Of a stretch of 25,772 bases of DNA, positions 284 through 17,951 are shown one piece after another. The DNA lies in IMG/VR virus record IMGVR_UViG_3300009183_000332, positions 1-25,772 of that record; one strand, 5' to 3'. A program made the translations under genes and the position numbers. The notes under the pieces were generated by a model. That model was given only the letters and a program-made list of their open reading frames with translations, made no database searches and was not told the origin of the DNA. The stretch's first letter is position 1. Each line of letters begins with the position of its first letter. The DNA comes from a virus.

Positions 284-2103
284 AAATTCTAACGATTGAC
301 TTTGAGACGGCCTATGGGGGTGACCTTGGCTTTGCTAAGCAGACTACCGAAGAGTACATACGCGACCCGCGCTTTGAAGTTATAGGGGTTTCAGTACAAG
401 TAGAGGACGATAAGCCCCAGTGGTTTAGCGGAACCATGACCGAGACGGCTAACTTTTTGAAGGGGTTTGATTGGGGGGACAGCTTGGCCTTAGCGCACAA
501 CGCTGTGTTTGATGGTGCGATTCTTAATTGGCATTTTGGCATTACACCCAAGGGCTGGTTGGATACGCTCTCAATGGCTCGTGCGTTACATGGCACTGAG
601 GTTGGTGGTAGCTTAGCTGTACTCGCCGAGCACTACGCTGTTGGCGTTAAGGGAGAGCAAGTCAAGCAGTACATCAACTACTTCCGCAAAGACTTCACGC
701 CAGAGGAACTCGCCGACTACGGCGGCTACTGCAAAAACGATGTGGCTATGACATGGGATTTGTTTGGGCACATGAGCGAGGGGTTCCCCGCAATGGAGTT
801 TCGGCTGATTGACCTGACCATACGCATGTTTACAGAGCCAGTGTTGCAGTTGGACAAGAAGGTGCTCACTGCTCACCTAACAAATGTTAGGGACAAGAAA
901 GAGTTGTTGATGAACAAGATGTTGATTGACAAAGACGATCTAATGAGCAACCCCAAGCTAGCCGATGTACTCCGGTCTTTTGACGTAGTGCCACCGATGA
1001 AGGTTAGCCCTACTACGGGCAAACAGACTTACGCATTCGCTAAGAACGACGAGGATTTTAAGGCCCTGCTGGAGCACGAGAACGTCATCGTACAGGCGAT
1101 TGTGGCTGCGCGGTTGGGCGTTAAGTCTACGTTGGAAGAGACACGAACCGCTAGGTTTCTGGGTATCGCTGATCGAGGGCCAATGCCAGTTCCTCTGCGC
1201 TACTACGCCGCCCACACAGGGCGTTGGGGCGGTGATGACAAGGTAAACCTCCAGAACTTACCACGCACTTCTCCGCTTAAGTACGCCATCATTGCGCCGA
1301 CTGGCTACGTAGTAATGGATTCGGATTCGTCACAGATTGAAGCGCGTACGCTGGCATGGCTGGCTGGACAGGAAGACTTGGTTGAAGCCTTTGATCGCGG
1401 CGAGGACGTTTACTGCATCATGGCATCAGCTATCTACGGACGGCCTATCACCAAGGCTGACACTCGTGAACGCTTTGTGGGGAAGACCACAATTCTTGGC
1501 TGTGGCTACGGCATGGGCGCAGTGAAGTTTCAGGCACAACTTCAGACATTTGGCGTAACGATTACGGTAGCAGAGGCAACGAAGATTATTGACGTGTACC
1601 GCAGGACTTACCCAAAGATTACAGCGCTGTGGAAAGTAGCGGGTACGGCGCTAGAAGCAATCATAAGGGGCCAGACGACAACGTTAGGCCGCAACGGTGT
1701 GCTCAAGGTTGACGGCAAGAACGGCATCAAACTGCCCAACGGCTTGTACATCCGCTACCCCAATTTGCGTAACAGTCAAGACGATGACGGCAAGTCTGAG
1801 CTTGTGTACGACACCAAAAAAGGCCGCTCTATTATACCGAATCGGATATACGGAGGCAAGCTAATTGAGAACGTGTGCCAAGCCTTGGCTCGGATTATCA
1901 TTGGTGAACAGATGCTTGCGATTGCCCGCAAGTACCGTGTTGTCATGACGGTGCATGATGCCGTGGCTTGCCTAGTGCCAATTAGAGAGGCTATTACCGC
2001 GATGGAATACGTCGAAATCTGTATGCGAATTCGCCCCTCATGGGGGTTGGAGTTACCCCTTAATTGTGAAACAGGATTTGGAGACAGTTATGGCGATTGT
2101 TGA
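280..2103 (+). CDS. Family A DNA polymerase with 3'-5' exonuclease domain
   Basis: Replicative phage DNA polymerase, 607 aa, starting with GTG that overlaps the previous stop. The N-terminal DEDDy proofreading exonuclease shows ExoI D7-x-E9 (DFET), ExoII N74...D78 (HNAVFD) and ExoIII Y150-x3-D154. The C-terminal polymerase domain shows motif A (DSSQIEAR, catalytic D349), motif B (R398-x3-K402-x3-L406-x2-GYG) and motif C (VHDA, catalytic D560). There is no 5'-3' exonuclease domain, as usual for phage enzymes of this length. Two residues stand out: Leu406 occupies the position of Phe762 in E. coli Pol I, and Ala561 follows the motif C Asp where Glu is usual. It heads an operon with nuclease and helicase genes, so it is the likely main replicase. 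The family call is secure; the fine specificity is inference. Confidence 0.97.
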   Translation: MKILTIDFETAYGGDLGFAKQTTEEYIRDPRFEVIGVSVQVEDDKPQWFSGTMTETANFLKGFDWGDSLALAHNAVFDGAILNWHFGITPKGWLDTLSMARALHGTEVGGSLAVLAEHYAVGVKGEQVKQYINYFRKDFTPEELADYGGYCKNDVAMTWDLFGHMSEGFPAMEFRLIDLTIRMFTEPVLQLDKKVLTAHLTNVRDKKELLMNKMLIDKDDLMSNPKLADVLRSFDVVPPMKVSPTTGKQTYAFAKNDEDFKALLEHENVIVQAIVAARLGVKSTLEETRTARFLGIADRGPMPVPLRYYAAHTGRWGGDDKVNLQNLPRTSPLKYAIIAPTGYVVMDSDSSQIEARTLAWLAGQEDLVEAFDRGEDVYCIMASAIYGRPITKADTRERFVGKTTILGCGYGMGAVKFQAQLQTFGVTITVAEATKIIDVYRRTYPKITALWKVAGTALEAIIRGQTTTLGRNGVLKVDGKNGIKLPNGLYIRYPNLRNSQDDDGKSELVYDTKKGRSIIPNRIYGGKLIENVCQALARIIIGEQMLAIARKYRVVMTVHDAVACLVPIREAITAMEYVEICMRIRPSWGLELPLNCETGFGDSYGDC

Positions 2104-2266
2104 TTACGCACGGCCTTGTATGTTGGCCGAGAATGCGTTAAAGGCGGCGCACGAAGCGATGCTAGAGAAGAAGTTTGCCGAGGCGATTGAGCAGGGCTTC
2201 ATTGCGATGGCAGAAACGAAGCTGATGATTAACTCGATCAGAGACATGCAGGAGCGCCAAAGATGA
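2090..2266 (+). CDS. Small hypothetical protein (58 aa) between polymerase and nuclease
   Basis: Function not recognised. The frame is open from 2066, but the ATG at 2090 is preferred because GGAG at 2080-2083 lies 6 bases upstream. This gives a 58-aa protein overlapping the polymerase end by 14 bases. It is predicted to be almost wholly helical (AENALKAAHEAMLEKKFAEA), acidic-basic amphipathic, with no membrane segment or Cys cluster. Its stop overlaps the start of the next gene in an ATGA arrangement, which supports it as a real, translationally coupled member of the operon. It could be a small accessory factor for the polymerase or nuclease, but nothing in the sequence shows this. Confidence 0.7.
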   Translation: MAIVDYARPCMLAENALKAAHEAMLEKKFAEAIEQGFIAMAETKLMINSIRDMQERQR

Positions 2267-2934
2267 CCACCAAACCAATCGTCTGGTCTTTCAGTAGCCT
2301 GAAGACTTTTCAGCAGTGCCCCAAGAAGTACTATCACACAAGGATTCTTAAGACCGAGCGTGAGCCCGACACCGTAGCGACTCTGTACGGCAAGTCAGCG
2401 CATACAGTTGCGGAAGAATACATACTCAACAAGACTCCGATCCCTCCCGCATTTGAGTACATGAAGGACATGCTTGACCAACTCAACGCCATCCCCGGCG
2501 AGAAGTTGTGCGAGGTGATGCTTGGCCTCACCAAAGAACTAGAGCCTTGTGAGTTTTATGCCGACGATGTTTGGTGGCACGGTATCGCCGACTTGGTTGT
2601 GCTTGACGAAGAGAACGGCATAGCACACTCTGTTGACTACAAGACTAGCAAAAACGCACGATACGCGGATGTTAAGCAGCTTGACTTGGTGGCTGCGGCT
2701 ATCTTTGCCAAGTACCCTAAGATCAAGACGATTAAATCTGCACTGCTGTTTGTGGTGAGCAAAGATTTTGTCAAGGCCACGCACCACGCTGAGATGAAAG
2801 ACAAGTACATTGAGAAGCCAGCGCAGGACGTTGCGCGTATCGAAGCAGCGATAGAGAACGGTGTGTGGAACCCGATCACCGGCCCTCTATGTAGGTTCTG
2901 CCCCGTCAAAGTTTGTGAACACAACAGGAGCTAA
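2263..2934 (+). CDS. PD-(D/E)XK nuclease of the Cas4/RecB type with Fe-S cluster cysteines
   Basis: Probable DNA exonuclease for replication or recombination. The 223-aa protein opens with FSSLKTFQQCPKKYY, the hallmark N-terminus of RecB/AddB/Cas4-like nucleases. Likely active-site residues are H47 (GKSAHT), D110 (HGIADLV), D125-x-K127 (SVDYKTSK) and Q139 (KQLDLVAAA). One Cys near the N-terminus (C19) and three at the C-terminus (C210-x2-C213-x4-C218) have the spacing that binds a [4Fe-4S] cluster in Cas4 and AddB. It starts by ATGA overlap with the preceding gene and is followed at 2 bases by the HNH gene. No cas1/cas2 or CRISPR array is nearby, so a replication/recombination role is more likely than spacer acquisition. 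The fold call is firm; substrate polarity is unknown. Confidence 0.9.
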   Translation: MTTKPIVWSFSSLKTFQQCPKKYYHTRILKTEREPDTVATLYGKSAHTVAEEYILNKTPIPPAFEYMKDMLDQLNAIPGEKLCEVMLGLTKELEPCEFYADDVWWHGIADLVVLDEENGIAHSVDYKTSKNARYADVKQLDLVAAAIFAKYPKIKTIKSALLFVVSKDFVKATHHAEMKDKYIEKPAQDVARIEAAIENGVWNPITGPLCRFCPVKVCEHNRS

Positions 2935-2936
2935 AA

Positions 2937-3215
2937 ATGCCATACGTAAACAAACCCCGCCCGTACAAAAAAGAGTACACCCAACAAGTCGAGCGAGGCG
3001 AACTGCCTACACGAATGGACCGCCAACGCGCCCGTAACGAGATGGACGCCAAAGGAATTGACCGCACTGGTAAAGACATTGACCACACGGTTCCGTTGAG
3101 CAAAGGCGGCACTAACGCGCCGAGCAACTTAAAGCTCAAGACGCCGAGCGCCAACCGTTCATTTAGCCGCAACTCTGACCACACAGTCAAAGTTAACAAA
3201 CCAAAGAAAAAATGA
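2937..3215 (+). CDS. HNH endonuclease-like protein
   Basis: Small 92-aa protein with an HNH-type core: D49-H50 (DIDHTVPLSKGG), N64 (SNLKL) and N73 (SANRSF). The usual final His/Lys is not obvious, though H82 lies nearby. The N-terminus is very basic (NKPRPYKKEYTQQ), as is the C-terminus (VKVNKPKKK), consistent with DNA binding. The ATG has AGGAG at 2926-2930. The stop overlaps the helicase start (ATGA). Small HNH proteins of this kind are frequent in phage replication modules. Here it is coupled in an operon and does not interrupt another gene, so it looks like a resident DNA-processing nuclease more than a homing element. Catalytic activity is inference. Confidence 0.85.
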   Translation: MPYVNKPRPYKKEYTQQVERGELPTRMDRQRARNEMDAKGIDRTGKDIDHTVPLSKGGTNAPSNLKLKTPSANRSFSRNSDHTVKVNKPKKK

Positions 3216-4597
3216 GCCTTGACACGTATACGTGGCCTCGCCCACATGGGTTTACACCGTTCGATCATCAGAAGGTAACCTCAGAGTTTTTAATTAGCAA
3301 CCCCAAAGCGTTTTGCTTTAACGAGCAGGGTACAGGCAAAACGGCGTCGGTGATTTGGGCGGTAGATCACCTTATGAACATCAACGCCATTAAGCGGGTG
3401 CTTGTCATCTGCCCGTTGTCGATCATGAAGTCAGCATGGCAGCAGGACTTGTTTAAGTTTGCCATACACCGTACGGTTGATATAGCCTACGGGAGCGCAC
3501 GTAAGCGCAAAGAGATTATTGGCGGAATGGCTGAGTTTGTCATCATCAACTTTGATGGCGTAGGCATCGTAAAGAACGAAATCATTGATGGTGAGTTTGA
3601 CCTGATTGTGGTTGACGAAGCCTCGGCCTACAAGAACGCGCAGACTGAACGCTGGAAGACACTGCGTGATATCAACAAGAGCGTCAAAGGTTTGTGGATG
3701 TTGACGGGTACGCCTGCTGCACAGTCGCCTGTGGATGCTTACGGATTGGCAAAACTAGTCAACCCTAAGGGAGTGTCGCCATTCTTTGGGCAGTACCGCG
3801 ACTCAGTGATGAACAAGGTGACAGACTTTAAGTGGACTCCAAAGCCGACAGCCAATCAAACAGTGCACCGAATCCTACAGCCAGCGATTCGGTTTGAAAA
3901 AGCGCAGTGCCTTGACTTACCCCCAGTTACGTTTGCGGATAGAGATGCGCCGCTCACGCCGCAGCAGTTGGTGTACTACAGAGTGCTTTTAAAAGAGATG
4001 CTCATTGAGGCGGCGGGCGAAGAAGTCTCCGCTGTGAACGCAGCGGTAAAGACCAACAAGCTGCTACAGATTTCCGGCGGCGCTGTGTACACCGACACTC
4101 ATGAGGTGCTGGAGTTTGATGTATCAAACCGCTTAAACGTGGTGCAAGAGATCATTGATGAGTGCAGTCATAAGGCGCTGGTGTTTGTACCCTTTACCCA
4201 CACCATCGAGCTACTGAAAAGGCACTTGACTAAGAACCACATTACGTGTGAAGTCATCAACGGAGCAGTGTCAGTCAACCGGCGCAGTGACATCGTAAAG
4301 AATTTTCAAGAGCAACCGGCGGTCAAGGTGCTTATCATACAGCCGCAAGCGGCGTCCCACGGACTTACCCTAACTGCCGCCGACACAATCATCTGGTACG
4401 CTCCATGTACTAGCGTTGAGACCTACCTACAGGCTAATGCGCGTATTGACCGCCCCGGCCAAGTCAACCCGATGACCATTTACCACATCATGGGTAGCAC
4501 GGTAGAGCGCAAGATTTACTCTATGCTGCGAGGCAACGTGAGTAGCCACCAAAAAATAATTGATCTTTATCGTCAAGTACTCGCCGAAGCCCCTTGA
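3212..4597 (+). CDS. SNF2-type superfamily 2 DNA helicase/ATPase
   Basis: ATP-dependent DNA translocase of 461 aa. Motif Q/I: DHQ at 18-20 and Walker A EQGTGKT (38-44). Motif II is VVDEAS (133-138) with DEAS replacing DEAH. Motif III is LTGTPAAQ (164-171). The second RecA-like lobe has LVFVPF, the motif V region SHGLTLTAADTIIWY and motif VI QANARIDRPGQ (407-417), with Arg fingers typical of SNF2 proteins. No accessory chromatin or DNA-binding domain is present, so this is the minimal phage version common in replication modules. The start overlaps the HNH stop by ATGA. The stop codon lies inside the -35 box of the promoter at 4594. A role in fork remodelling or recombination alongside the polymerase is likely. 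Confidence 0.95.
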   Translation: MSLDTYTWPRPHGFTPFDHQKVTSEFLISNPKAFCFNEQGTGKTASVIWAVDHLMNINAIKRVLVICPLSIMKSAWQQDLFKFAIHRTVDIAYGSARKRKEIIGGMAEFVIINFDGVGIVKNEIIDGEFDLIVVDEASAYKNAQTERWKTLRDINKSVKGLWMLTGTPAAQSPVDAYGLAKLVNPKGVSPFFGQYRDSVMNKVTDFKWTPKPTANQTVHRILQPAIRFEKAQCLDLPPVTFADRDAPLTPQQLVYYRVLLKEMLIEAAGEEVSAVNAAVKTNKLLQISGGAVYTDTHEVLEFDVSNRLNVVQEIIDECSHKALVFVPFTHTIELLKRHLTKNHITCEVINGAVSVNRRSDIVKNFQEQPAVKVLIIQPQAASHGLTLTAADTIIWYAPCTSVETYLQANARIDRPGQVNPMTIYHIMGSTVERKIYSMLRGNVSSHQKIIDLYRQVLAEAP

Positions 4598-4621
4598 CAA
4601 TGTACAAAGCTGTGATAGACT
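4594..4621 (+). promoter_or_regulatory. Sigma70-like promoter at the end of the helicase gene
   Basis: A perfect TTGACA -35 box (4594-4599), a 16-base spacer and an extended -10 element (TG at 4613-4614, then TAGACT at 4616-4621). The -35 box contains the helicase stop codon. The predicted start, about 7 bases beyond the -10, is near 4628, the first base of the large stem in the leader. It would transcribe the 138-aa, Cys-rich and HTH genes as a separate unit. This is the only strong promoter match I found between genes in the window. Confidence 0.65.
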
Positions 4622-4627
4622 TGTTTT

Positions 4628-4717
4628 TGTGAGTGGGGTTGGACAACGGGTTAGCGCCGTTGAACATCTCCATGTTGGTTGAACCCCGCTGCTTTATGCG
4701 AACCAACTCCGCTCACA
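4628..4717 (+). ncRNA. Structured 5' leader or small RNA with two alternative folds
   Basis: Bases 4628-4642 pair with 4703-4717 as a 15-bp stem with only two G-U wobbles. Enclosed are hairpin 1 (CAACGG 4644-4649 with CCGTTG 4657-4662, 7-base loop) and hairpin 2 (AACAT 4663-4667 with ATGTT 4672-4676, CTCC loop). The 9 bases AACCCCGCT (4682-4690) and AACTCCGCT (4705-4713) are direct repeats, and both are complementary to AGTGGGGTT (4632-4640). The 5' arm can therefore pair with either, giving mutually exclusive folds. The element lies between the promoter and the start codon at 4745. I do not recognise a known RNA family; it is not a tRNA. It could be a cis-acting switch or a processed small RNA. 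Confidence 0.6.
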
Positions 4718-4722
4718 CCCAT

Positions 4723-4734
4723 TAACAATTGTTA
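4723..4734 (+). promoter_or_regulatory. 12-bp perfect palindrome next to the ribosome binding site (possible operator)
   Basis: TAACAATTGTTA is a perfect inverted repeat directly touching the Shine-Dalgarno sequence AGGAG (4734-4738) of the gene starting at 4745. Its size suits a dimeric HTH regulator. The HTH gene at 6063 in the same unit is a possible binder, but this is only inference; a 12-bp palindrome in AT-rich sequence could occur by chance. Confidence 0.35.
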
Positions 4735-4744
4735 GGAGCATTAG

Positions 4745-5161
4745 ATGAATGAAGAAGCTACAGCCGCTGTAGACTTGGACCAGCTAACCGCGATCTACAT
4801 AAAGATCAGGGACGCTAGAGCCGATAAGAAGCGGGCATTTGAGGTAGAAGACAAAGAACTTGAGGACCAGCTATCGGTGCTTGCCACCCAGATGTTGGAC
4901 ACCTGTAAAGAAATGGGTGCTGACAGCATCCGAACACCGCACGGCACAATCATTCGCACAGTTAAGTCACGGTACTGGACGAACGATTGGGATTCAATGT
5001 ACGACTTCATTCAAGAGAATGGTGCATTTGGCCTGTTGGAGAAGCGACTTCATCAAACCAACATGAAGGACTTCCTCTCTGAGAATCCCGGCTACTTGCC
5101 TATGGGCTTAAATGTAGAAAGCGAATATACCGTTTCTGTCAGACGTTCTAAGGAAAAATGA
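4745..5161 (+). CDS. Conserved-looking hypothetical phage protein (138 aa)
   Basis: Function not recognised. The first about 60 residues are highly charged and probably a coiled coil (DARADKKRAFEVEDKELEDQ). The second half is a compact domain with aromatic residues (SRYWTNDWDSMYDFI), then a segment LEKRLHQTNMKDFL and a Pro-Gly rich stretch before a basic C-terminus (VSVRRSKEK). There is no membrane segment or Cys cluster. A good Shine-Dalgarno (AGGAG, 4734-4738) supports the ATG at 4745. It is the first gene behind the structured leader, so it is the most direct target of any control there. The following Cys-rich protein starts one base after its stop. The charged N-terminus and position suggest a nucleic-acid or replisome-associated role, but this is not demonstrated. 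Confidence 0.8.
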   Translation: MNEEATAAVDLDQLTAIYIKIRDARADKKRAFEVEDKELEDQLSVLATQMLDTCKEMGADSIRTPHGTIIRTVKSRYWTNDWDSMYDFIQENGAFGLLEKRLHQTNMKDFLSENPGYLPMGLNVESEYTVSVRRSKEK

Positions 5162-9413: not shown

Positions 9414-9443
9414 GCCCCCGGCCTAAACACCGGGGGCTTTTTT
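9414..9443 (+). terminator. Rho-independent terminator ending the rightward replication block
   Basis: GCCCCCGG (9414-9421) pairs perfectly with CCGGGGGC (9430-9437) around an 8-base loop, followed by six T residues (9438-9443). The T-run is on the + strand only, so it stops rightward transcription. It overlaps the stop codon (9442-9444) of the leftward 2045-aa gene, placing the two convergent blocks back to back. The hairpin itself could still slow leftward polymerase. Confidence 0.9.
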
Positions 9444-12400
9444 ATTTCTGAACTTCGCGTTCCAGTTTTTTGGAGCTTGGCTCCAGCAATTCCATAATTT
9501 GCGGGTAGTATTTTTCGTCGATTGGGAAGCCGCGATCAGACAGCAACCTGCGCTCCATGCGTTTCTTCAAAGACTCACTAATCTGGTCGCTTGTGATGGG
9601 GTCCCAGTAGTTCTTCATGTTGTAGTTAATGAGCTTGTCAAAAGCTTTTTCAACATCGTCGTCGGAGCCTTTAGTAATCTCCAAGTCCAACCTAGCCAAT
9701 GCGTCAGAACGATCACGCTTAGCCTCTAAGATCAACCCTTGGATTTTAAAAATAGCTTCTCGGCGGGTTTGAAGTCCCTCAGTAGCGAAGCCAGCACCCT
9801 GTGCCAGAATCTGACCTATGGTAAATTCCTCCGCATCTTTGATAGATATGCCTGTTGTAGTCTGTGCGCCTTCTTGAGAATACCTATAAGCTTTTAATGG
9901 GTCACGGAATATGGCTGGAGCTAGTTGCTCCATACCTTGAAGAATCTTTCCTTGTTTGAAATAATCTATAGCCCGACCAGTCTGCTTGACGAGAGAAACG
10001 CTAGGGCCAAGCAAAGATGCCCCATAGTCCATCATCTCAGCTTGAGCAGTAGCTTGGTCTTTTATTTCCGGGAACCACATATTGTTCATGGACATGCTAC
10101 TAGTGATGTCGTAGCCAGTCAGCGCAGCAACCAAACCTTTGTCAAGGAACTCATCGAGTGTGTGGTCACCAATTTTTACATTACCAAATGTTTGCGGGAG
10201 CCATACGTTGCGGAACCAGAACTCAAGATCACGGCCTTCAAGTGGGTCATCTTCGTCATCGGCCTTCATAGAGTTGAGGATGCCTTGCAGCACGCCCATA
10301 GCCATGCTGATGCCGGGGATGCCGACGTATCCAGCTAGCGCATACGACATACCGAGCGAGCCCAAAAATTGAATTTTGGCTTCTTTTCTTTCTTGCGGAG
10401 TCAAACCTTTAAACATGTTGTACGCATTGCGCACAAAGTACGTAGTCACAAACGCCGGGAACATCTTGAACTGCAAGATAGAGCGGCCAATTGGGTTGTT
10501 AGCGTTAATAAACACTTCACGCGATTTACTTGCCGCAAGGCCCCGTGGGCGGTTTGATGCGTGGTAGTTACCTAACGCCTCATGGCTTTCTTGCGTTGCT
10601 GCTTCTAACGCAGCCTCATGCGCCAATCCTTTGTCGCGGTTTAAACGATACGAGGTCATGAATGTTACTTCACGAATCATCCGCTCCGAATGGTGGAACA
10701 GCGCAGTCATTGCGTTGGTGACAACTTTGCCAACACGACGAACTTTGCTTTGCCCTAACTTAGTAGGCACATCACGACGATTACCTAAGTCAAAGGCCAT
10801 TGTGGTGTCACTGATACCGAAGTCCTGCATGTACTGTGTAGCCAACTTCTCGTCAGCGGTCAAGCCCTCAAGCTGTGACATGCTTGGCATTGTGTAGCTG
10901 GTAGACCCATCAGGATTAGTCTTAGTTACGCCGATACCGTTAAACACGTTCAGTGACTTGGCAAGCGCAGCGGCAGTTTTAACCGTACCGTGCTTAGATG
11001 CGAGCACTGGAACAACAAAGACAGGCATAGCGGTGAACTGAGCCACCACAGTTTTGATGGAAGTCATCATCCATAAGAAGGCCGTAGTGTTTAAAAGATT
11101 AGACACTTGAAACCCAAGGCTGTCTTCTAAAGAAGGCCGTACCTGTTGTTCTGCTCGCAAACGCATCTCCGAAACAAAATCACCCAGCCGTGCTTTGTTT
11201 GGGTTGCCTTCTAGGGAAGCGGAAGCGCTCTCAAGGCCGCGCATAATTTCAGGGCCGTACTTGATACGCGCAATTTGATTTGCCATGTTCGTGCCGGTAG
11301 CCACGAAGTTACGGTGGATGTCACCCGAGAAACCAGCTACACCTTGACGGTGCATAAACTGTCGGCGGAAGTTGCGGTCTGGAAGAGTCTGCAAGTACAT
11401 CTGGTAGATGTCATCCTTGAGCTTGTCCATATTCAAAGTAGCCATATTGCCGACAACATTACCGAAGTCGTCAGTGATGCTAGTCACAGGCTTAGCTTCA
11501 AGCGTGTTAAATATCTCCTTCAGCATCTCGCTGGCAGCTACATCTTTTTTACGTGCGCTAGACAGGTCGTTGCCTTCATCGATATCTCCACCCTCTATCA
11601 TCTCGGCTTTTGTGCGGGCGTTACCGGACGCAGCGTTCAATTGCTTGACACGATCTTTTACAAACTTATCACGGTCAGATTGGCTCTCAAACATCTGGAA
11701 CTCACGAGCCTTACCTTTGCCCACACGCACCCAGTACTGCCCGTAGCGCATAAGGGGGAAGTATGGATACAGCTTCGTGCCGTCCTCATACATCTGCTTA
11801 ATAGAAGCAATCAACTTACCCTTTGGTGACTTAGGGTCGCTGGCGCTACCGGGCAAGCCAGACGCTTCAATCTGTTCTTCAAGAACCGCGTGATACGCCT
11901 TGTGGTTGCTTGCGTAAAACTCACGTACCTTGTTGTATAGTTTTTTGTTTGCTGGAGTCAGTCGGCCCCACAACGCAGCAAGGTTTCGATCTGTCGTAAC
12001 TTTGTTAGGGTCCTTTGACGTGATTGTTGAATAGTGCATCACGTTACCAAGCGCTGTGTACTGCTTGGCGTCCTTTGCCGCAAGATTATTTAAGTCTTCA
12101 GCGGTATCAAACATGGCGTTCTTAGCCTTGTTACGCATGGCGTTCATCTTGTTGATGCCAGCCCATGTGTCTTTTATACCGCCAATACCAAGTTTGCCTG
12201 CCCACCGCACAATAGCTTCGGTCTGCAACGCCGGGAGCAACTGCTGCATTACGCCGTCTTTTAGCCAAACCCCACTTGCCACCATACCATCAAGGAACTG
12301 CTCCATGTTGCGCATGCCCACCAACTGCTCAATATTTCCGCCAGATTTAATGTTGTCGGCGAAGTTAGACTTTTGCAGCTTCTCAACAGTCTTATCGACT

Positions 12401-15400
12401 TTTGCGCGGGTTTGTTTGGCGGACGCAAAGACCTGTTCGTAGCTTTCACCACGTTCAATCCGCTCCAGCTTGCGCATGGTGGGTGTTTTTTGTGCGGACA
12501 GAATTGTGTCTGTCATGATAATCAAGTCTGTCATGGCACTGAAGTCTTTTTCGCCGACTCCAAAGTAATCCATGATGGAACGAACAAAACGGCTGAACGC
12601 CGAGCCTTTAGGTGACTTAGCGTCTATGCTCAGCAAAAACTCTTGCATCACAGGCTCGGTCATGCCGTAAGCCAAGAACTCCTGATGCACTTCAAAAATC
12701 TTGTAGTAGGGTTTGCCGTTCTCGTCTAGGTCAAGAGTAGACTCCACCAACGCACGGAGGTCATCGGGTACTTGACCCATTGCGTCCATAACTTTGTACG
12801 TGGCATTCGCATTCATCATTACACGGGTGAACAACCGTGTAGTCTTAGTCAGCACCGCATCTGGGGAGAACCCGTTAGCGTTAGCCATTAGACCCAAAGA
12901 CAGCTTCTGATTCGTAGCAGCGTGCAGCAATTCGTGCAGCACCGTGATGTTATTGACGCCTTGGTCAGCCCCGAAGCTAACACCGCGCACGTAGACCCTA
13001 CGAGTTCTAGCAGGTAGGTCTTCAATGAACAGCCCCCGTGCGGCGTTCCAGTCGTTCATGTTTCGCTGCAACTGCTCAGGTATAGGGTCGCCTTTTTCAA
13101 TGACGATGAACTCTACATCTTTAACAAAGTTGCGCAAACGCTGAGCGATAAATCTTTGGAATGCGTTGCCTGTCTTAATAACCCGCGCAAGTGCTTGCAC
13201 TGCGTTGGTGGCTTTGGAAAAGCTTGCATCTGGCCGACTAGCTTTGCCGGTCTTTTCCGAGCGAGACACTTTGCTCTTCTCGTACGTCATACCAGTTCTT
13301 ATATCAGCAAGTTCTTTTGGGCTGATTGCTGGATTTTTAAGCGCGGCTTCTATCTTGCCCCGAGCGGTGTCTGTTGGTGAAAGCGAGTCTTGCAGCGTAA
13401 GCAGAGACTTGATGGCTTTTATTTTGTCAACGCGCTTATTGGTTTCCGCTTCTTTTAACTGCTCGTCTGTTTCAATATTTGCTTCGTCAATAGGAGCAAG
13501 TGCTGTGTCAAGCGCAGTAATAGCCGAGTCGGTTACACCAGAGGCAGCGGTAACAGCTTTTCTTTTTGCTCTATCGTTTGCTTTAGTAGCAGCACGGTTG
13601 GCTATTCGTTGTTCTTTAGTAAGCGGAGGGCGACCACGTCCTTTCTTTGGGGCTTCGGCTGCTGGAATGTAGACGTATTCTGGCCCGTTCAGCGTTACAA
13701 AGGTCACCCCATCATGCCCAGCATTTCTGGCGGCATTTACTAAATCAGCCATAGATGCAGATTGTGGGAGTCCTAACTGTTCTTTTGCCGCTGCCCACGT
13801 AGGGGCACTCAGCAAATTCTTAAACTCCACATCTTGCTGAGTTACTTTACCGCTCTCCCCGGCGTAAGTTTCTGCTACGCCCTTGTTGGGAGACATAAAT
13901 AGTGCGCCACCTACTGTTTTACGATCTCCCTGCCCTTCTGGTACGCCACGGTATAGAGTGAGTTGTTTGGGAGCAATTTCAGGCGCAACCTCTGGCGCAG
14001 CTTCGGTCTCAGGGGTCTGCAACTCCGCAATGGCTTCGTCAACGGGTTGGAACTCAATAGTAGCCGCTTTGTCAACTTCAGCAATTACGTTTTGTAAATT
14101 GCTGGCTGGCTCAGCGGTCAGTGCAGTCGGTTCTGTTCCTTCTCGTGCAGCAGGCTGGCTAACATCCGGTCCAACAGGAACCATTCCAGTTGGGTCAAGC
14201 GTTCTAGCGGTTTCGGAGGCGGACTCTGTATCGGACTGTGCAACCACTCCATCGCCAACTCCACTTGGTCCACCGACAGGTCCGACAGCAGTTGCTGTTC
14301 CTTGAGCTTCTCTCTGGGCATCCGCATTTTGTTTGTCCTCTACAGCTTCTTTGGTAGCTAGCTCAATAGCAGCTTCTTCTGGAAATGGAGCATTGTTTGC
14401 TCTAAACATTTCAGTAAGCTGAGCAACGCGCTCTGGGTCTGGTTGACCAGTAGGTGCAGTCTCAAGTGTAGGCGCTTCGCCCTCCGCCGCTGGAGGCCGC
14501 ACTGTTGTAGTTGTGCCTTTGTTAATCGCTTCTATTGTTTTGGCGGCTTCTTCAATCTTTAATTTTGCACGGTCAGAACGAACGCCCATAGCACCGCTTA
14601 CACCACCCATAGGGCCACCGAGCAGCAGCGCACCGCCAGCGGCTTCTAGATACTCTCTAGCTGCCTCAGGGTCAGTAAACGGATCAAGTGGTTTATCAGC
14701 TTGCCACCGCTCCAATACTTGCTGGATTACCTCTTGAGGAACTTCAAAGGCAATACCTTTTGCGGTCCCACTTGCTACAGCTTTAGCATAAGCCTTTGGT
14801 CTTGTAGCATTTTCAATAATCTCAGCAGTGGTGCGTTGGGCGGCTTCTTTACCCTCAAGACCAATAAGAGCGCCGAGCGGCTTAAAAAACTTGAACCCAA
14901 ATATGTCAAGGGCAGTTGAGCCAGCAGCAGCTACAGTAGCTGAGAGACGGTTAATATCTTCGCCTTCCCGGCCTTCTTTGGTTTGCTTCTCTTTTTGAAC
15001 CGCAATGTTGTCAGCAATGTAGGAACCCAATGTAGCCAAGCCAAAAGCAGCGGTACCGACAGCAGCGGCACTCAATGCAAAAGGGGCAGCTACGATACCA
15101 GCACCTACGGCAGCACTTGCAGCAGCACCGGCAGCGGCGGCGGGGGCCATAGAGCCGAAGGAGCTACCAGCAACTTCTTTAAATTTACTTCCAAGTTTAC
15201 CTAGCGCTTCACCATAGTTACCAGCTTTGACCTCATCACCAATTTCACTAAACTCAGTTTGCTTATAGGCGTGTTCAGACTCATCTTTGTATTTGGCTAG
15301 TTCTTTTGTAGCCTCAGCCTGATCGCCCAGCCCGGTGTACAGTTTAGCTGCTGGTAGCGCAGTATTGGCACGCTCTTTAAGTGAAGTCCAAAAAGAACCA

Positions 15401-15579
15401 AAGAACCCACCACTTTCGGTAGGTTCTTCTTTTGCCGAAGCAGAAGAGATTGTTTCCCAACCATCCGCACTAGGTCCCCCACTAGGGACAATTGTTTCCC
15501 AACCGTCTGCATTTGCTTTAGCTACGGGTCCCCCACTGGGGGCAATTGTTTCCCAGCCGTCTGCATCTGCTTTAGCCAT
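9442..15579 (-). CDS. Giant polyvalent virion protein with ADP-ribosyltransferase and HExxH metallopeptidase motifs (candidate ejection protein)
   Basis: 2045 aa. Residues 1-44 are two and a half copies of an 18-residue unit containing DGWETI. An Ala/Gly hydrophobic segment follows (about 144-190). Residues 540-640 look like an ADP-ribosyltransferase of the R-S-E class: LYRG (R544), LFMSPNKGVAETYAG (S563), DGVTF and GPEYVYI (E634). An AT-hook core RGRP is at 648-651. A zinc-peptidase motif VLHELLH has H882, E883 and H886, with E967 (HQEFLAYG) a possible third ligand. The C-terminal half is helical with hydrophobic segments near 1494-1530 and 1740-1770, resembling large polyvalent-protein domains such as LPD38. 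Its place after the nozzle and core genes matches T7 gp16-like ejected proteins. Enzyme activities are inferred from motifs only; no lytic transglycosylase motif was recognised. Confidence 0.85.
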   Translation of the reverse strand: MAKADADGWETIAPSGGPVAKANADGWETIVPSGGPSADGWETISSASAKEEPTESGGFFGSFWTSLKERANTALPAAKLYTGLGDQAEATKELAKYKDESEHAYKQTEFSEIGDEVKAGNYGEALGKLGSKFKEVAGSSFGSMAPAAAAGAAASAAVGAGIVAAPFALSAAAVGTAAFGLATLGSYIADNIAVQKEKQTKEGREGEDINRLSATVAAAGSTALDIFGFKFFKPLGALIGLEGKEAAQRTTAEIIENATRPKAYAKAVASGTAKGIAFEVPQEVIQQVLERWQADKPLDPFTDPEAAREYLEAAGGALLLGGPMGGVSGAMGVRSDRAKLKIEEAAKTIEAINKGTTTTVRPPAAEGEAPTLETAPTGQPDPERVAQLTEMFRANNAPFPEEAAIELATKEAVEDKQNADAQREAQGTATAVGPVGGPSGVGDGVVAQSDTESASETARTLDPTGMVPVGPDVSQPAAREGTEPTALTAEPASNLQNVIAEVDKAATIEFQPVDEAIAELQTPETEAAPEVAPEIAPKQLTLYRGVPEGQGDRKTVGGALFMSPNKGVAETYAGESGKVTQQDVEFKNLLSAPTWAAAKEQLGLPQSASMADLVNAARNAGHDGVTFVTLNGPEYVYIPAAEAPKKGRGRPPLTKEQRIANRAATKANDRAKRKAVTAASGVTDSAITALDTALAPIDEANIETDEQLKEAETNKRVDKIKAIKSLLTLQDSLSPTDTARGKIEAALKNPAISPKELADIRTGMTYEKSKVSRSEKTGKASRPDASFSKATNAVQALARVIKTGNAFQRFIAQRLRNFVKDVEFIVIEKGDPIPEQLQRNMNDWNAARGLFIEDLPARTRRVYVRGVSFGADQGVNNITVLHELLHAATNQKLSLGLMANANGFSPDAVLTKTTRLFTRVMMNANATYKVMDAMGQVPDDLRALVESTLDLDENGKPYYKIFEVHQEFLAYGMTEPVMQEFLLSIDAKSPKGSAFSRFVRSIMDYFGVGEKDFSAMTDLIIMTDTILSAQKTPTMRKLERIERGESYEQVFASAKQTRAKVDKTVEKLQKSNFADNIKSGGNIEQLVGMRNMEQFLDGMVASGVWLKDGVMQQLLPALQTEAIVRWAGKLGIGGIKDTWAGINKMNAMRNKAKNAMFDTAEDLNNLAAKDAKQYTALGNVMHYSTITSKDPNKVTTDRNLAALWGRLTPANKKLYNKVREFYASNHKAYHAVLEEQIEASGLPGSASDPKSPKGKLIASIKQMYEDGTKLYPYFPLMRYGQYWVRVGKGKAREFQMFESQSDRDKFVKDRVKQLNAASGNARTKAEMIEGGDIDEGNDLSSARKKDVAASEMLKEIFNTLEAKPVTSITDDFGNVVGNMATLNMDKLKDDIYQMYLQTLPDRNFRRQFMHRQGVAGFSGDIHRNFVATGTNMANQIARIKYGPEIMRGLESASASLEGNPNKARLGDFVSEMRLRAEQQVRPSLEDSLGFQVSNLLNTTAFLWMMTSIKTVVAQFTAMPVFVVPVLASKHGTVKTAAALAKSLNVFNGIGVTKTNPDGSTSYTMPSMSQLEGLTADEKLATQYMQDFGISDTTMAFDLGNRRDVPTKLGQSKVRRVGKVVTNAMTALFHHSERMIREVTFMTSYRLNRDKGLAHEAALEAATQESHEALGNYHASNRPRGLAASKSREVFINANNPIGRSILQFKMFPAFVTTYFVRNAYNMFKGLTPQERKEAKIQFLGSLGMSYALAGYVGIPGISMAMGVLQGILNSMKADDEDDPLEGRDLEFWFRNVWLPQTFGNVKIGDHTLDEFLDKGLVAALTGYDITSSMSMNNMWFPEIKDQATAQAEMMDYGASLLGPSVSLVKQTGRAIDYFKQGKILQGMEQLAPAIFRDPLKAYRYSQEGAQTTTGISIKDAEEFTIGQILAQGAGFATEGLQTRREAIFKIQGLILEAKRDRSDALARLDLEITKGSDDDVEKAFDKLINYNMKNYWDPITSDQISESLKKRMERRLLSDRGFPIDEKYYPQIMELLEPSSKKLEREVQK
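15448..15579 (-). repeat. 54-bp tandem repeat encoding the DGWETI units
   Basis: Two full 54-base units (15526-15579 and 15472-15525) and a partial third (15448-15471) encode AKADADGWETIAPSGGP-like units at the N-terminus of the giant virion protein. The DNA copies are highly similar (caattgtttccca is shared), indicating recent in-frame duplication. Copy number may vary between relatives. Confidence 0.85.
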
Positions 15580-15581
15580 GA

Positions 15582-17951
15582 TTACTTAGCCTTACGTTGG
15601 ACTGAACCGTCTGGTGCAATTCGGTAATCATACTTGTTTGGCTCGTATTTCTGCCCACTCTGCTCTACTCGGGCTTGCAGTCCAACAGAGGCGGAGGCAC
15701 TTGCCCTACCGGCTGTGGGGACAGGAGGAGCAACGGCGGGAGCAGCGGGGGACGGCAGGCGTTCCGTAATCATGTCTTTTTCGCGCTTTGCCATACCCGC
15801 AGTGTCTTTGGCGGTTTTTGCAGCCCTCCAAACAGGGTCGGCGTACTTAGCAGTTTCTACAGCCTTTGTAGCGTCTCTCAGTGCAGCGGCATCATTTTTG
15901 CCTTTTGCTAAGTCTTCCGCACTTTGTATTCTTTCTGGGATAGACGCAGCCGCACGAGTTTCTTTTGCCGTATCGCTAAATGCTTGGGCTTTAGCCGCTG
16001 CAAGTTTAATTGGGTCTTTGGCAATTGAAGGGTCTTCGGCAAGTGCTCGGTTAAGTTTAGCTTCTACAGATTCTTGCTCAAACGTCTTTTTATTTGCACT
16101 AGCCGCAGTAGCCGCAGCTTGCCGTTGCGAGTTCTCAGTGCTGGACTGGAGAGTGGCAATTTTTCCTTTTGCGTCAATCGCACGTTCCAAAGCTTTTGTT
16201 GCCGATGCTTTACCTTTTTCGTAGCTGTTTTCGGCTTTGGCAATTTGGCCGTCTCTGCGTTGTTCGGCAGCAGTAGCAAGTTGAATTTCCGAAGTACGCA
16301 ACAAGCGGCTAGCTTCACGAGCTTCTTTCTTAGCTTTTGTAGCTGCTTCGCCGCCTTCGATACCGGCGTTAGCAAGCCCGGTTACAAGACCACGACCTTT
16401 TAACATGCCTCTGGCTGCGGCAAAATAAGCTTCGGCAGGTATGCCATCTTTAGCGTCAAGTGCTTTACGATCTGCGGCTACTTCTTTAGCTATAGGGGCC
16501 AGAGCGCTCTCACCGTACATAGCTTGCACTCCGGGCAGCGCCGCAGTAATACCGGCTTGGCGTTCTGTGGGGGTATCTGTAATTTCTTTGTCCCCCAGAG
16601 TGGAAAGTTCATTCAGTGTGTCTTGCAACCCGCCACGAGCAAACGCAACAGCACCGCCGCCAGCCATACGCTCGGCCATACCAGAAGTTACAGTACCAGC
16701 TAAACCGCTTCTCAATGAAGCCTGAAAGCCCATTTCGTCTTGGATAGCCCTAATTTGTTCGGAGTCGCCACGGGCTTTGGCCGCTTTTAGAGCCTGCTGT
16801 AGCTGCTGCGGAGACAGCGAGCTAACAATACTTGCCACATTCTCAGCGCTATCTACGCCCCCACCGCCAGCGTAAGCCATACCACCATCAGCCATAAATT
16901 TGGACAAGCCAACACCGGCCATACCGAGCGAGCCCAACTGCTGAGCCATACCGGGTCCGGGTTCGTACATTTGTTTGGTGGACTGTTGACCAAGCGGCAA
17001 GCCACGGATCATGTCGGACATAAAGCCCAACTGTTTATACGGGTAGTTCTGCTGGTTCTGAAAGTCTTGATAACCTTGATCCAGACCCCTTTGTTCTAAT
17101 GCCTGTTGCTGACCACCATAAGCTGACTGAAGCTTGTTGATGTCCATAGCCTGACCAAACTTTTGCCCGCCAAGCGCACCCAACTGACCCGCGCCTTGCA
17201 ACGCTGTTTGAAGACCCTGCATACCAAGACCTGCGCCGTACTGTTTGGACTGCTCTCCAAGCTGCTGCGCTTGCATGTTACGGGATTGGTCTGCGTTAAA
17301 TTGCTGTTGAGCTTGCCCAAAAGCGCTTTGCAAACCCTGCGCTTGGATGTCACCCTTTTGCATAGCCAAATTGCGGCCAGCTTCTGCGTCCATGATTGCT
17401 TGGCGGGAACCACCAAATGCCCCTGCACCTGTAGCTTGAGCGTTGCGTCCTTGAGTGGCAATATCTGCTGCGCGGCCTGCTTCTCGCTGCTGTACATCAA
17501 CAACACTCTGCATGTAAGGAGACATGTATGCGGAAGCATCGGCCTGCCCAAATTTACCGGCTGTAAAAGTTGATGGGTCATATTTTGTACCCAGAGCACC
17601 AGCCGTAGCCGCACCAGCTTGCGACAAACCAAGGTCCGTACCAGCGGAGGTCTTCATGTTGGCAGCGCCTGCCTGCGCTCCCTGTTGCATAGGGTTAAAG
17701 CCCGCGATACGGTTAGCTCCGTAAGTCTGGTATGGGTTCTGGTTTATGTCTGTTAAAGCGCCAGTTTTAGCCAGCGTGTCTTTAGCGTAACCTTTGGCCC
17801 AATCAGGAAGCTCAGAAACTTGAGTTTGCGTAGAAGGGGCAGCTTCATCGCCACCCCCACAAACGATACGCCCACCCTCTTTACGGGTAACGTTGCTACC
17901 AAGTGGTTCGCCAAATGCGTAAAGTTGCCGACGCGAATAACTTGTAATCAT
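15582..17951 (-). CDS. Large Gln/Ala/Gly-rich virion protein, probable internal core/ejection protein
   Basis: 789 aa. The N-terminus (RRQLYAFGEPLGSNVTRKEGG) is followed by a domain with YMSPYMQSVVDVQQREAGR (about 142-160), a sequence style common in phage structural proteins. Residues 200-320 are Gln-rich and helical. The middle holds Gly-rich, partly hydrophobic segments (MADGGMAYAGGGG), and the C-terminal third is a long charged Ala/Lys/Glu coiled-coil-like region (EASRLLRTSEIQLATAAEQ). There are no enzyme motifs. The start overlaps the stop of the acetyltransferase-like gene by ATGA, and the stop is 2 bases from the giant gene, so the three are one operon. By position and composition it resembles the middle ejection protein (gp15-like) of T7-like phages; this is inferred from order, not homology. 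Confidence 0.8.
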   Translation of the reverse strand: MITSYSRRQLYAFGEPLGSNVTRKEGGRIVCGGGDEAAPSTQTQVSELPDWAKGYAKDTLAKTGALTDINQNPYQTYGANRIAGFNPMQQGAQAGAANMKTSAGTDLGLSQAGAATAGALGTKYDPSTFTAGKFGQADASAYMSPYMQSVVDVQQREAGRAADIATQGRNAQATGAGAFGGSRQAIMDAEAGRNLAMQKGDIQAQGLQSAFGQAQQQFNADQSRNMQAQQLGEQSKQYGAGLGMQGLQTALQGAGQLGALGGQKFGQAMDINKLQSAYGGQQQALEQRGLDQGYQDFQNQQNYPYKQLGFMSDMIRGLPLGQQSTKQMYEPGPGMAQQLGSLGMAGVGLSKFMADGGMAYAGGGGVDSAENVASIVSSLSPQQLQQALKAAKARGDSEQIRAIQDEMGFQASLRSGLAGTVTSGMAERMAGGGAVAFARGGLQDTLNELSTLGDKEITDTPTERQAGITAALPGVQAMYGESALAPIAKEVAADRKALDAKDGIPAEAYFAAARGMLKGRGLVTGLANAGIEGGEAATKAKKEAREASRLLRTSEIQLATAAEQRRDGQIAKAENSYEKGKASATKALERAIDAKGKIATLQSSTENSQRQAAATAASANKKTFEQESVEAKLNRALAEDPSIAKDPIKLAAAKAQAFSDTAKETRAAASIPERIQSAEDLAKGKNDAAALRDATKAVETAKYADPVWRAAKTAKDTAGMAKREKDMITERLPSPAAPAVAPPVPTAGRASASASVGLQARVEQSGQKYEPNKYDYRIAPDGSVQRKAK

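Follow-up and report, generated by a model that had tools for sequence, protein, structure and literature searches.

The 25,772-b IMG/VR virus fragment IMGVR_UViG_3300009183_000332, referred to here in its whole length as the window, encodes a 2045-aa protein that is probably the large ejection protein of a short-tailed phage, equivalent in position to T7 gp16 or phiKMV gp37 and remodelled into a polyvalent protein with swappable modules. A constant chassis (residues ~361-530 and 641-2045), made up of a linker, an AT-hook-like motif, a zincin-type metallopeptidase (MPTase) domain, large polyvalent protein associated domain (LPD) 39 and a PLxRFG region, would carry exchangeable N-terminal modules, namely a repeat tag that may direct capsid packaging, a hydrophobic arm, and an effector slot occupied by a putative R-S-E-type ADP-ribosyltransferase (ART) of ~110 residues. 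Polyvalent proteins combine at least two disparate domains, with LPD or MPTase types among them, and a predicted ART fold, a zincin and an LPD39 above the Pfam cut-off are found together in this chain. Proteins of this kind were already known. The novelty lies in an R-S-E cassette that is swapped precisely at one fixed slot, in a zincin shared with gp16-type ejection proteins, and in N-terminal tags that can be exchanged. What the DNA shows directly is which domains are present and how far they are conserved, where the slot lies, and how the genes are ordered.

An earlier, sequence-only reading had described this gene as a polyvalent virion protein with ART, AT-hook and metallopeptidase motifs, and that description is supported at the fold and family level. 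The open reading frame (ORF) is present with an ATG start, and every motif lies where it had been placed (R544, S563, E634, RGRP at 648-651, HELLH at 882-886, and E967 within EFLAYG); hydrophobic segments are seen at about 147-181 and 1508-1528. From composition, 0.010 HExxH and 0.018 RGRP motifs would be expected in the 2045-aa protein, and by both composition and conservation its motifs exceed chance.

By homology, the zincin links the protein to internal virion proteins. Residues 740-1071 match phrog_2206, the N4-type virion RNA polymerase family (E 8e-13), and a tblastn search with the same residues returned 109 phage records, mostly internal core proteins of phiKMV-type phages. A zincin profile of 49 sequences, none from phiKMV, matches PDB entry 9sfn_G, annotated as 'Internal virion protein' (E 2e-21), and also finds phiKMV gp37, in which VLHEAVHAAT and KELVAWG occupy positions matching the HELLH and E967 blocks. 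The gp37 protein is the gp16-type protein of phiKMV (PMC8954989), and phage PhiM1 has a related ejection protein, a tetramer (PDB 8vb2); the words 'protease' and 'metallo' are not used in the PhiM1 ejectosome paper. The gp37 and T7 gp16-type tetrameric ejection proteins (9sfn, 8vb2) resemble the 2045-aa protein in operon position, and gp37 further shares the zincin with HExxH and a distal Glu, as well as a PxGxxxxQF motif at a comparable distance downstream. They differ in that the 2045-aa protein has a much longer N-terminal arm, a tag and a slot, and C-terminal homology between them is weakly supported. Packaging in the virion followed by ejection thus appears well supported for the 2045-aa protein by its homology to internal virion proteins and its place in the operon. 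A DarB-like protein of 4515 aa, JC1 gp69, was detected with 51 peptides by mass spectrometry in purified virions (PMC9144972). Among the related loci collected here, given as L numbers, L025 4795-8808 is phiKMV gp37 itself, and this protein and L118-L124, ejection proteins from several Autographiviridae, have an HExxH at the zincin position.

Among 81 zincin sequences, comprising 80 related loci and the window, H882, E883, H886, E967, Y971, G972 and F998 are invariant. An AlphaFold2 (AF2) model of residues 741-1076, with a predicted local distance difference test score (pLDDT) of 87, contains a helix, three strands (82-87, 109-114 and 119-125 of the model), the HExxH helix and a later helix bearing E967. 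This layout matches the description of the polyvalent MPTase, in which a three-stranded sheet is followed by a first C-terminal helix with HEXXH and a second with the Glu ligand (PMC5512222).

An ART fold is predicted for residues 531-640 with good confidence. A model of residues 534-646, computed with AF2 from nine aligned cassettes, has a pLDDT of 85 and a predicted template modelling score (pTM) of 0.75. The top Foldseek match to it in the PDB is 6kyf (E 1.2e-3, probability 1.0), followed by MbcT at ranks 2-3 and then by tankyrases, with NatT also present; the 15 best matches, each with a probability >0.5, are all ART-superfamily proteins. In BFVD, the matches of the same model include numerous large, uncharacterised proteins of phages, as well as several annotated as PolyVal ADP-ribosyltransferase. 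The nine aligned cassettes have 27 invariant columns, including Y543, R544, G545, A569, Y572, E634 and Y635; R544 and E634 are the same in every distinct cassette found, whereas position 563 is S or T (T in L020). In the model, R544 lies in strand 5-13, S563 closes strand 27-30 and E634 lies in strand 99-104, and sequence and predicted strands together give the arrangement of the R-S-E clade, with Arg on strand 1, Ser on strand 2 and Glu on a late strand. The FMSP of strand 2 resembles the FxS of R-S-E enzymes, and the last block, NGxEYIVI, resembles that of PARPs (NEYIVY). A chance origin of the ART letters was rejected because of the fold and the invariance. Fragments of C3-type ARTs, returned by a search of PDB sequences with the cassette profile, were non-significant and not aligned on the catalytic blocks, and are not used as evidence.

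The structure 6kyf is that of AcrIF11, an anti-CRISPR ART (PMC12421852). Like the putative enzyme of the cassette, it is a phage-encoded, NAD+-using (NAD+, nicotinamide adenine dinucleotide) ART, and it is the nearest solved structure by fold; it differs in sharing 18% identity over the aligned part, at a template modelling score of about 0.5, and in that it stands alone and has D115 as an important Asp, whereas the cassette sits in a giant, putatively packaged protein. The ART-PolyVal family (PF18760) resembles the cassette at the profile level in the region of the FxS and GxDGxxF...EYI blocks: in a profile-profile comparison (hhalign), the cassette and the PF18760-type ART of L013/L021 and relatives align with a probability of 92%, the E-value being that of a single comparison. 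The Pfam model of PF18760 itself misses the cassette at E up to 10, and the cassette has Arg, not His, on strand 1. The polyvalent proteins of Iyer et al. 2017 (PMC5512222) likewise combine an ART and a zincin MPTase with an LPD and a motif for nucleic-acid binding, at the end of the structural genes, but the ARTs of genuine polyvalent proteins are described there as H-Y-D and Alt-type R-S-E enzymes were said to be absent; the cassette, with R-S/T-E, departs from that statement, and its exchange in a fixed slot is a further difference.

Several observations weigh against this account. Foldseek searches of the PDB with the zincin model gave nothing below E 0.1, the best being carboxypeptidase 3hq2 at E 0.18, and the zincin assignment therefore rests on signature, family and layout; of the metallopeptidase proposed earlier from HELLH and E967, the residues and the layout stand, and a significant match to a solved zincin fold is missing. 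The Foldseek E-values for the ART model are modest, with 1.2e-3 the best in the PDB, the cassette sequence has no Pfam or PHROG match, and the ExE/QxE acceptor motif is absent from all cassettes, which read NG[PQRKL]E (NGPE in the window, ending at E634). The PLxRFG half gives only a short, weak match to gp37 (P about 1e-3), and the protein is known here only as the translation of an uncultured phage fragment. Alternatively, the zincin could play no part in proteolysis and be a relic or a purely structural piece of the ejection core, stabilised by metal. HExxH is absent from the complete gp16-type relatives L117 (1015 aa) and L128 (825 aa), L125-L127 being partial sequences, so that the domain is dispensable for ejection in some phages, and the N4 virion RNA polymerase, which requires its MPTase region for encapsidation, is packaged unprocessed (PMC5512222); both points, with the lack of a significant PDB zincin match, fit such a role. 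We nevertheless consider it somewhat unlikely, since the catalytic residue E883 is as invariant as the ligands, and a purely structural zinc site would not need E883.

A second alternative concerns what the cassette does. No E or Q stands two residues before E634, so the sequence does not predict an acceptor, and the enzyme might instead hydrolyse NAD+; the cassette would then be an ART-fold NAD+ hydrolase or phosphorylase of the MbcT or NatT kind, draining NAD+ instead of modifying a specific protein. The high rank of MbcT and the presence of NatT in the fold search agree with this. However, where RES enzymes have Y and N (PMC9503650), the cassettes retain the Ser and Glu of the triad, with Thr replacing Ser in one of them, and the top fold match is an anti-CRISPR ART that modifies protein; together these points make an NAD+ drain unlikely in our judgement. 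The earlier R-S-E assignment holds, with an ART fold predicted, ART proteins as the PDB and viral matches, and R544 and E634 unvaried.

The reading of the large ejection protein as a carrier of swappable modules draws on close relatives of the gene. Five of them, L003-L007, are 64-91% identical to the 2045-aa protein over the chassis and only 8-15% identical over residues 531-640. At the DNA level, where identity outside the slot is mostly 75-95%, the conserved flanks stop near residue 530 and restart at 641, and this right edge of the exchanged DNA is identical in all six relatives compared. The slot is bordered by AIAELQxPE and KKGRGRP, and the exchange occurs between proteins that are otherwise ~80% identical. 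It holds the ART in the window, a charged, probably coiled-coil segment in L003, another segment in L002, and a segment with TTQEIAExVEVTPEV in L004-L007. The ART cassette is found again, at 40-67% identity, in giant proteins otherwise unmatched to the 2045-aa protein, some of them with a methylase-helicase, a weak GNAT, LPD38 or a second ART, and is present in 0/80 of the zincin relatives; a tblastn search with it against 50,697 phage records returned nothing. The ART is an exchangeable cassette, and these patterns suggest that phages swap payloads in the slot. In L056 and L077, a PF18760-type ART follows directly after the zincin, and effectors are therefore inserted at more than one place of the scaffold. 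The sequence-only reading had made constancy of its motif residues among homologues a test: the zincin residues and the Arg and Glu of the ART do not vary, Ser alternates with Thr, and the nearest homologues have no ART segment because the cassette is exchangeable. An ordinary DarB-like, DNA-protecting virion protein with the ART segment as a neutral passenger is very improbable, since, although the PLxRFG half is common to DarB-like proteins and the sister phages lack the ART, the methylase/helicase that defines DarB is absent and 27 cassette columns, catalytic letters included, are invariant across otherwise unrelated proteins, the cassette being therefore selected as a unit. Two side observations touch the same proteins: an R-S-E cassette and a PF18760-type ART occur in one giant chain in L013/L016 and L021, and in L002 the polyvalent ORF is broken at 1172-1174, between 2-1171 and 1175-4795, through an assembly error or a real stop.

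The AT-hook-like motif lies directly beyond the slot. That it forms part of the ART cassette was rejected, as it is present in cassette-free sisters. The AT-hook proposed earlier is borne out as a motif, with an RGR[PK]-type sequence ahead of the zincin in 57/75 relatives, but Pfam AT_hook gives KKGRGRP only 12.4 bits, below the cut-off.

The N-terminus is also modular. Self-repetition exceeds that of shuffled sequences (z >3) in 28/40 non-redundant N-termini (L027-L106), and in nearly all of the 28 a short motif, aromatic or hydrophobic, occurs two or three times in tandem and varies by phage (FFDQFD, WWEEAPL, FVPLSE, FTSFTPI, GPWAQFA, GRDLSAELF, WTPPSDAV and others); among the remaining N-termini, several share a small set of compact starting sequences. 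The first ~50 residues of the 2045-aa protein form a further exchangeable module. In P1 DarB, the first 30 residues are enough to target a reporter to the capsid (PMC9024508), and by analogy the module is a candidate capsid-targeting tag, a role that is a natural guess. The arm (51-360) is 14-28% identical to that of relatives whose chassis is ~80% identical. L003 shares the tag with the window at 74% identity but the following arm at only 14%, and tag and arm therefore recombine separately.

The C-terminal region matches DarB-like giant proteins (phrog_10089, E 7.5e-76) and, by tblastn, 35 phage records with identities of 21-28%, all of which cover less than 80% of the query. DarB-like/PLxRFG giants such as those of PEp14, SopranoGao and Parlo share the C-terminal ~850 residues, and that of Parlo also has a zincin; they differ from the 2045-aa protein, which has the ART cassette and in which scans of Pfam, PHROGs and NCBIfam found no methylase-helicase dyad. 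The PLxRFG half may correspond to the gp37 C-terminus, to which its match is short and weak.

From these parts, and from the ART and protease activities that we infer for them, a course of infection may be proposed. By homology, the protein would be packaged into the head and ejected through the tail with the DNA. The zincin, acting by zinc-dependent proteolysis and, judging by its residues, most likely in self-processing, would process the polypeptide, either inside the virion or once entry has taken place, and so release or activate the N-terminal arm. The ART would then ADP-ribosylate a host protein, either one dangerous to the entering genome or one that the phage has to commandeer, and the AT-hook might, speculatively, hold the arm or the ART near phage DNA. 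A bolder version, which we regard as rather doubtful, would make the gp16-type ejection protein a reloadable platform in which tag, membrane arm and cassette are swapped independently, the cassette being a packaged ART that disables a host defence on entry, as an injected counterpart of AcrIF11.

The cassette offers a testable unit for the proposal that phages inject counter-defence enzymes ahead of gene expression, with ~110 residues, clean boundaries, three mutable residues and natural cassette-free relatives as controls. The polyvalent metallopeptidase is tied to a domain that ejection proteins of phiKMV and other well-studied phages contain, and in these both zinc binding and processing are testable. 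As candidate signals for capsid targeting, the exchangeable repeat tags at the N-terminus can be compared across many phages.

Table 1. Features of the 2045-aa protein and its upstream neighbour, with positions in the window
Feature	Residues	Position	Strand	Basis or remark
2045-aa polyvalent/ejection protein ORF		9442..15579	minus	ATG at 15579, stop at 9442
N-terminal tag, three tandem DADGWETIxPSGGP-like copies	4-45	15445..15570	minus	self-repeat z = 11.9
N-terminal arm, Ala/Gly-rich hydrophobic segments	51-360	14500..15429	minus	exchangeable module
Predicted ART-fold cassette (R544, S563, E634)	about 531-640	13660..13989	minus	AF2, Foldseek, conservation, boundaries
AT-hook-like KKGRGRP	645-651	13627..13647	minus	constant chassis, outside cassette
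Zincin-type metallopeptidase domain	781-1031	12487..13239	minus	phrog_2206, 9sfn_G, AF2 pLDDT 87
HELLH, putative zinc-binding/catalytic motif	882-886	12922..12936	minus	H, E, H invariant 81/81
E967 in EFLAYG, putative third zinc ligand	967	12679..12681	minus	invariant 81/81
LPD39	1143-1239	11863..12153	minus	PF18858, 34.2 bits vs cut-off 27
PLxRFG ('tail-700') C-terminal domain	1272-2023	9511..11766	minus	NF032893 E 1.4e-105
789-aa 'DNA ejection protein', directly upstream, same operon		15582..17951	minus	phrog_4287 E 5e-15

The strand of the gene, left unstated in the sequence-only reading, is minus; the plus-strand frame of 9442-15579 contains many stops. As that reading had it, the gene ends the ejection-protein operon: it is the last of a leftward structural operon and starts 3 nt past the stop of the gene for the phrog_4287 'DNA ejection protein'. 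The leftward order is tail fibre, holin/lysin region, structural protein, a 579-aa, a 135-aa and the 789-aa ejection protein, and finally the 2045-aa ORF. Its place after an ejection-protein gene is the usual gp16 position in the gp14-gp15-gp16 type of gene order reported in PMC8954989. A scan of genome contigs yielded no relatives, and PADLOC gave no match. On the opposite side lies a convergent replication operon with DNA polymerase, exonuclease, helicase and primase, and between this and the end of the polyvalent gene, at 9414-9437 (+) of the window, is a strong terminator-like hairpin with a T-run.

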